From Gammaproteobacteria bacterium (GTDB lineage: Bacteria > Pseudomonadota > Gammaproteobacteria > Pseudomonadales > Azotimanducaceae), in NCBI GenBank assembly GCA_004357385.1, contig SMWF01000078.1, forward strand, positions 1 through 64,000: 64,000 nt of DNA, given 5' to 3'. The position numbers were made by a program, and so were the translations under genes. The notes below the pieces were generated by a model. The model did not search any database and was not told the DNA's origin. It was given only the letters and a program-made list of their open reading frames with translations. Shown piece after piece: positions 13,442 through 14,605 of the stretch. How positions within the stretch are numbered: position 1 is the stretch's first letter; each line of letters starts with the position of its first letter.

Positions 13442-13507
13442 CAGCCAATGAACGTCGAATGTTAGGCTAGCTCGTGAAGGGTGACTGCGCCGGGAGGAGG
13501 ACACGAC

Positions 13508-14605
13508 ATGTTACTGAATTCGTTGAGCGTCGATCGGGCCGAGTTCGAACGCGGAACCGGCTGGACGCTGAAGCCTGAAGGCGCCTGCAAGGGCGACGTC
13601 TGCATTCCGCTACCCGATCCCATGGCGGAGCAGATCGATGTAGAAGCGACCGCCAGCGCCATGGGTCTGCCACTGGTGGCCGCGCCCGAGCACAATCTCT
13701 GGGCGCTGGGTCCAGAGTCGATCGGCTCGCGCGCGCTGACCAGCGCCGAAGCGCCGAACCTGCGACTACCCGATCTCGAGGGCAACGAATTCGAGCTGTC
13801 CAGCCTGCGCGGACAGAAGATCGTGGTGTACGCCTGGGCGCCCTACTGAGGCTGCTCTCGATCCCTGCCCGTGTGGCAGGAATTACGCAACGAACTGCAT
13901 CCGAAAGGCCTGGAAATCGTCACCGTCGGCATGGACGCGCTGGGCGCGGACGGCTGTCGGGAGTTCATCGAGGCGGCAAAGCCGGAGCATCCTTCGCTGA
14001 TCGACCGGCATCACGTGCTGGCCGAGCTGTTCGGGGTGGTGAACATCCCACAGAGCATCTGGATCGACGAACAGGGAATGATCGTTCGGCCCGCCGAAAC
14101 GGCGCCGGAGCCCCCGGATCCCGACCGCGCACCGAGCATGGAACTGCCCGCCGAAATGCCGCAGCACTTCGTCGAGATGATGGGTGAAGCCGCTAAGATC
14201 CAGCAGGACCCGGAGTCCTACCATGCGGCGCTGCGTGACTGGGTCGAGAACGGCGCAGACAGCCAGTTTGCACTCTCGCCCGAAGCTGTCGTTGCACGTT
14301 CCCGACCCCGCAACGAAGAGATTTCCCGTGGCCATGCGCACTTCGAACTGGCTGCCCAGCTGGAGATCGACGGCCACCACGATGCGGCGATCGAGCACTT
14401 CAAAGACGCCCACCGCCTGGTTCCCGAAAGCTGGACGTTCCGTCGCCAGGCCTGGTCGTTGGAGCAACCCATCGAAGGACCGATGGCGCGTTTCTGGCAG
14501 GGGCCGTCGGATGAAGATCCTGGCAGCTGGCCCTACGCAGGAGACTGGGTCTCAGACATTCGTGCGGTCGGTGCGGAGAACTATAACGAGCCCTGGACAC
14601 CCTGA
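13508..14605 (+). CDS. Predicted selenoprotein: redoxin/thioredoxin-fold protein with in-frame TGA (Sec114)
   Basis: 365 residues if the TGA at 13847-13849 is read as selenocysteine. The frame is open on both sides of it, and the protein pattern continues without a break: VVYAWAPY, Sec114, GCSRSLPVWQELRNELHP. In redoxin/TlpA-like homologues this position is the attacking Cys of a W-x-x-C-G-C type active site; here it is U-G-C with Cys116 as resolving partner. Downstream are SLIDRHHVLAELFGVVNIPQSIWID (thioredoxin cis-Pro region) and a TPR-like helical tail (about 270-330). An N-terminal EGACKGDVC (Cys27/Cys32) is also conserved-looking. GGAGGA lies just before ATG 13508. A hairpin fitting the bacterial SECIS rules follows the TGA. 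The alternative, a nonsense mutation or sequencing error exactly at the catalytic position, is possible. Selenium-insertion genes are not in this window. Confidence 0.75.
13847..13880 (+). promoter_or_regulatory. Candidate bacterial SECIS element
   Basis: After the TGA (13847-13849), CCTGCC (13864-13869) pairs perfectly with GGCAGG (13875-13880) around a 5-nt loop CGTGT, 20 nt from the TGA. Three more pairs below one mismatch (13860-13862 with 13882-13884) extend the stem. A G within the first two loop bases and a loop 16-37 nt from the UGA are the published bacterial SECIS criteria as I recall them; both are met. Confidence 0.6.

Follow-up and report, generated by a model that had tools for sequence, protein, structure and literature searches.

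We find that one gene on the forward strand of a 64,000-nucleotide stretch of DNA (the window) almost certainly encodes a selenoprotein, a reading about as firm as sequence allows, and that its product, judged by its profile match, is a member of the NF041054 (WAxxUGC_long) family. We consider the joint claim, selenocysteine (Sec) insertion together with membership of this family, very probable. The codon, the hairpin, and the decoding machinery are all present in the DNA, and from them we infer that Sec is inserted. UGC selenoproteins of this kind have been catalogued since 2008, and the gene is a further member rather than a discovery. Gene callers split such genes or lose the active site, so correction of the annotation is useful here.

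Results

A single reading frame continues across an in-frame TGA

The gene is a single frame broken by one TGA at codon 114 (Table 1). The first-pass annotation had proposed that two open frames read as one protein across this codon, and the two are indeed in the same phase, with the frame from ATG 13508 to the TGA in phase with the one that opens at GTG 13871 and closes with the TGA at 14603-14605. The read-through product has 365 aa, with AWAPYUGCSRSLPVWQEL surrounding residue 114 (the join reads AWAPY-U-GCSRSLPVWQEL). This joined protein matches the curated family end to end, scoring 513.8 bits against NCBIfam NF041054 with residues 1-362 on positions 1-351 of the 354-position profile (the curated whole-protein cut-off is 300 bits), and it contains the WAxxUGC motif as WAPYUGC (residues 110-116). 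The Pfam models AhpC-TSA and Redoxin exceed their cut-offs for the joined protein only and for neither half alone. Direct reading gave a strong Shine-Dalgarno-like sequence before ATG 13508 and none upstream of GTG 13871 (CTCGATCCCTGCCC), in agreement with the earlier claim that the downstream half has no ribosome site of its own. Elsewhere in the 64,000-nt window, Rfam at gathering thresholds returned no match, no tRNA gene was found, and the only further candidates from a scan for redox genes broken by a TGA were short, chance-like frames.

Table 1. Coordinates of the gene and its features, as positions in the window
Feature	Position	Strand	Basis
Complete selenoprotein gene, taking the in-frame TGA as Sec; terminates at TGA 14603-14605	13508..14605	+	NF041054, 513.8 bits
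Shine-Dalgarno-like GGGAGGAGG	13492..13500	+	Read directly
In-frame TGA at codon 114, the predicted Sec position in WAxxUGC	13847..13849	+	TGA also in 40 homologues, TGC in one
Invariant N-terminal CxxxxC (C27, C32) within GWxxKPEGxCxxxxCxP	13586..13603	+	30 aligned sequences
ResA/TlpA-like thioredoxin fold (AhpC-TSA/Redoxin), ~residues 78-198	13739..14101	+	Pfam, ResA structures, model
Predicted bacterial SECIS hairpin with a CGTGT loop on a 6-bp stem	13864..13880	+	Folding, conservation in homologues
TPR-like helical C-terminal region, ~residues 273-316	14324..14455	+	Pfam below cut-off, profile matches, model helices

The TGA codon is retained across homologues

A sample of 299 genomes from the phylum yielded only one further good member (G139), and the search was for this reason shifted to close relatives; the homologues finally used came from relatives of the host genome and from Acidimicrobiia and Chloroflexi MAGs. 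The codon at residue 114 was readable in 42 genes, the one in the window included, and was TGA in 41, TGC in one, and nothing else in any, so that every readable gene has Sec (TGA) or Cys at this column, the outcome for which the first-pass annotation had looked. The 40 homologues that keep TGA are ~29-72% identical, and this retention of Sec in an unstudied family suggests that its chemistry benefits from selenium in place of sulfur. The TGA had also been said to fall where homologues have the attacking Cys, and its position matches the first Cys of a ResA-like CxxC. Where dS was unsaturated, dN/dS was 0.1-0.35 both upstream and downstream of the TGA, and this purifying selection on both sides argues that the downstream part belongs to a living protein.

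Several individual genes deserve mention. The TGC gene (L088:3033-4052, in G301:C130) is a natural Cys form, with the motif WASWCGC and the hairpin lost; the same genome also carries a Sec form and selB, providing a ready Sec/Cys pair for comparison. A second, distant paralogue in the host's own genome (L062:5957-6865; G000:C72:20465-21409) carries the motif WASWUGC, with TGA as the U codon, and has a separate hairpin with the loop at 21 nt; it scores 254.5 bits against NF041054, under the cut-off, and may represent a subfamily without a model of its own. Two family copies (L095 in G317:C80 and L096 in G312:C224) contain TGA plus an internal TAG or TAA and are possibly decaying copies or frameshifted assemblies.

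A SECIS-like hairpin is conserved downstream of the TGA

The hairpin pairs CCTGCC (13864-13869) with GGCAGG (13875-13880) around the loop CGTGT (13870-13874). The published bSECIS rule (PMC13188914) calls for a loop of 3-9 nt with a G in its first two positions, a stem of 4-16 bp, a loop 16-37 nt from the UGA, and an MFE <= -7.5, and the hairpin satisfies it with a 6-bp stem that starts 14 nt after the TGA, a loop at 20 nt, and an MFE of -9.3 kcal/mol; stem, loop, distances, and bacterial SECIS geometry are exactly as first described. By chance, counting the two strands of the window together, 6.6% of TGA triplets have such a hairpin downstream, and for the single gene it is unremarkable against synonymous shuffles (P = 0.435). 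Of the 31 genes whose stem includes a Leu codon, 30 form the complete set of six pairs, compared with a mean of 11.4 and a maximum of 18 among 2000 shuffles that preserve protein and codon usage. The first base of this Leu codon and the third base of the Gln codon covary through synonymous, compensatory changes (25 CTG-CAG, 4 TTG-CAA, 1 TTG-CAG, and 0 CTG-CAA; Fisher p = 1.8e-4, uncorrected for relatedness of the sequences), and the hairpin is absent from the Cys homologue. We conclude that what the hairpin contributes to the predicted Sec reading lies in its conservation across homologues and not in the single gene.

Ten further genes (L083-L087, L089-L092, and L097) are of a Val type, in which DVPVW or DVSVW replaces DLPVW. 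They keep the loop CGTGT at equal distance, with a stem that is mostly single-bulged on the 3' side, and this bulged stem is a natural SECIS variant.

The host genome carries the selenocysteine machinery

The first-pass annotation had proposed a search of the genome for selA, selB, selC, and selD, and all four are present in the host assembly (3.47 Mb, 142 contigs, 92.7% complete). The genes for tRNA-Sec (71.2 bits; anticodon TCA by ARAGORN), SelB (406 bits), and SelA (548 bits) are adjacent on contig C91, and SelD matches occur on contigs C22 and C114. The match on C114 (L019/L066, G000:C114:3862-4764) sits inside a 745-residue open frame that is possibly a fusion such as Ndh-SelD, fusions of which type are described in PMC2398784.

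Among 58 genomes (the host's own and its relatives), the family occurs in 21 of 36 with selB and in 1 of 22 lacking it (p = 2.4e-5, uncorrected for relatedness). When the test is restricted to the taxonomic family f1, the association loses significance (p = 0.14) because nearly all of its members carry selB. One MAG of 91% completeness in ~550 contigs (G315) has TGA-type family genes, and neither selB nor tRNA-Sec was found in it, an exception most likely due to incomplete assembly.

Alternative readings of the TGA

Were the TGA a genuine stop, the locus would hold two genes or a pseudogene, with the downstream part restarted at GTG 13871 or dead, and this is how a gene caller splits the frame. 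No ribosome site precedes that GTG, however, and a product restarted there would have an incomplete redoxin fold and no Cys116; the downstream half is under purifying selection, and 40 homologues share the TGA, leaving this reading highly improbable. We give just as little credence to selenium-free decoding of the TGA as Trp, Cys, or another residue, whether through code reassignment or through suppression by a near-cognate tRNA. The TGC homologue indicates that Cys is tolerated at residue 114, but the genome has the full Sec set, including a tRNA-Sec with anticodon TCA, the hairpin is conserved and covarying, and the gene's own final stop is also TGA, which makes general reassignment unlikely. 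Sequencing or assembly error is very unlikely, and the least probable of the three, because the 40 homologues share the TGA, among them the own-genome paralogue G000:C72, even though a single base separates TGA from TGC or TGT.

Structure and proposed activity

In the AlphaFold model (pLDDT 93.9), a ResA/TlpA-like thioredoxin fold lies between an N-terminal part and a TPR-like tail made of helices. Comparison with ResA-like structures gave a best Z of 14.1 and an rmsd of 2.2 over 139 residues. For the tail, Pfam TPR falls below cut-off, while profile matches to TPR chains and the helices of the model point to a TPR-like region. The N-terminal 75 residues are barely covered by the comparison, with no solved structure for them among the matches listed. 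An alignment of 30 sequences shows no variation at Cys27, Cys32, or Cys116, and none at residue 114 beyond the Sec/Cys exchange. Sec114 aligns with the first Cys of a ResA-like CxxC, for example CGPC in L063 of the same genome, and the second Cys lies at +2 rather than +3 of residue 114; the centre is thus UxC, not the CxxC active site of ResA/TlpA, in a thioredoxin-like fold.

Under the selenoprotein reading, SelB with Sec-tRNA-Sec would recognise the hairpin downstream of UGA 13847 and insert selenocysteine at residue 114. Sec114 would then be the attacking residue, placed as the first CxxC Cys of ResA/TlpA, and Cys116 would be the resolving residue, forming a U-G-C selenenylsulfide with it. 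Fold and motif make a thiol/selenol oxidoreductase activity quite probable, likely the reduction of disulfides or peroxides. The protein is probably cytoplasmic because no signal peptide is evident. When seven window neighbours were sought around 18 homologues, no neighbour was consistently conserved and the only matches were a few to distant superfamily members, so this context does not point to a pathway. As a guess, the Cys27/Cys32 pair may relay electrons to or from the UGC centre, an idea we hold only tentatively, and the TPR-like tail may dock a partner protein. It is possible, though we think it rather unlikely, that long-form members work as a redox relay of three parts, in which an N-terminal domain with the invariant CxxxxC shuttles electrons to the unusually short-spaced UGC centre and a TPR-like tail docks one specific partner; if true, this would be a selenoenzyme activity so far undescribed.

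Discussion

The closest known counterpart is the 'ResA-like WAxxUGC motif-containing protein' of NF041054, a curated NCBI model for the long form, with which the gene shares a whole-length match, the motif WAPYUGC, and length (354 positions), and from which we found no difference. Zhang and Gladyshev listed a 'Prx-like (UGC-containing)' group in 2008 (pfam00578, motif UGC, 46 sequences with Sec and 855 with Cys; PMC2398784, Table 2), which, compared by description rather than by sequence, shares the Pfam domain and the UGC motif. A 2026 catalogue (PMC13188914) has an entry for a 'UGC-containing TlpA disulfide reductase family protein', citing the 2008 work and a 2016 survey; the main text of the 2016 survey PMC5029168 makes no mention of UGC, and the names WAxxUGC and NF041054 were not found in the literature searched. 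ResA, TlpA, and CcmG have the thioredoxin fold in common with this protein (Z 11-14 over ~135 residues) and an equally placed attacking residue. The protein studied here differs from them in a predicted Sec for Cys, in UxC for CxxC (a loop one residue shorter), in the absence of an evident signal peptide or membrane anchor, and in its additional N- and C-terminal parts.
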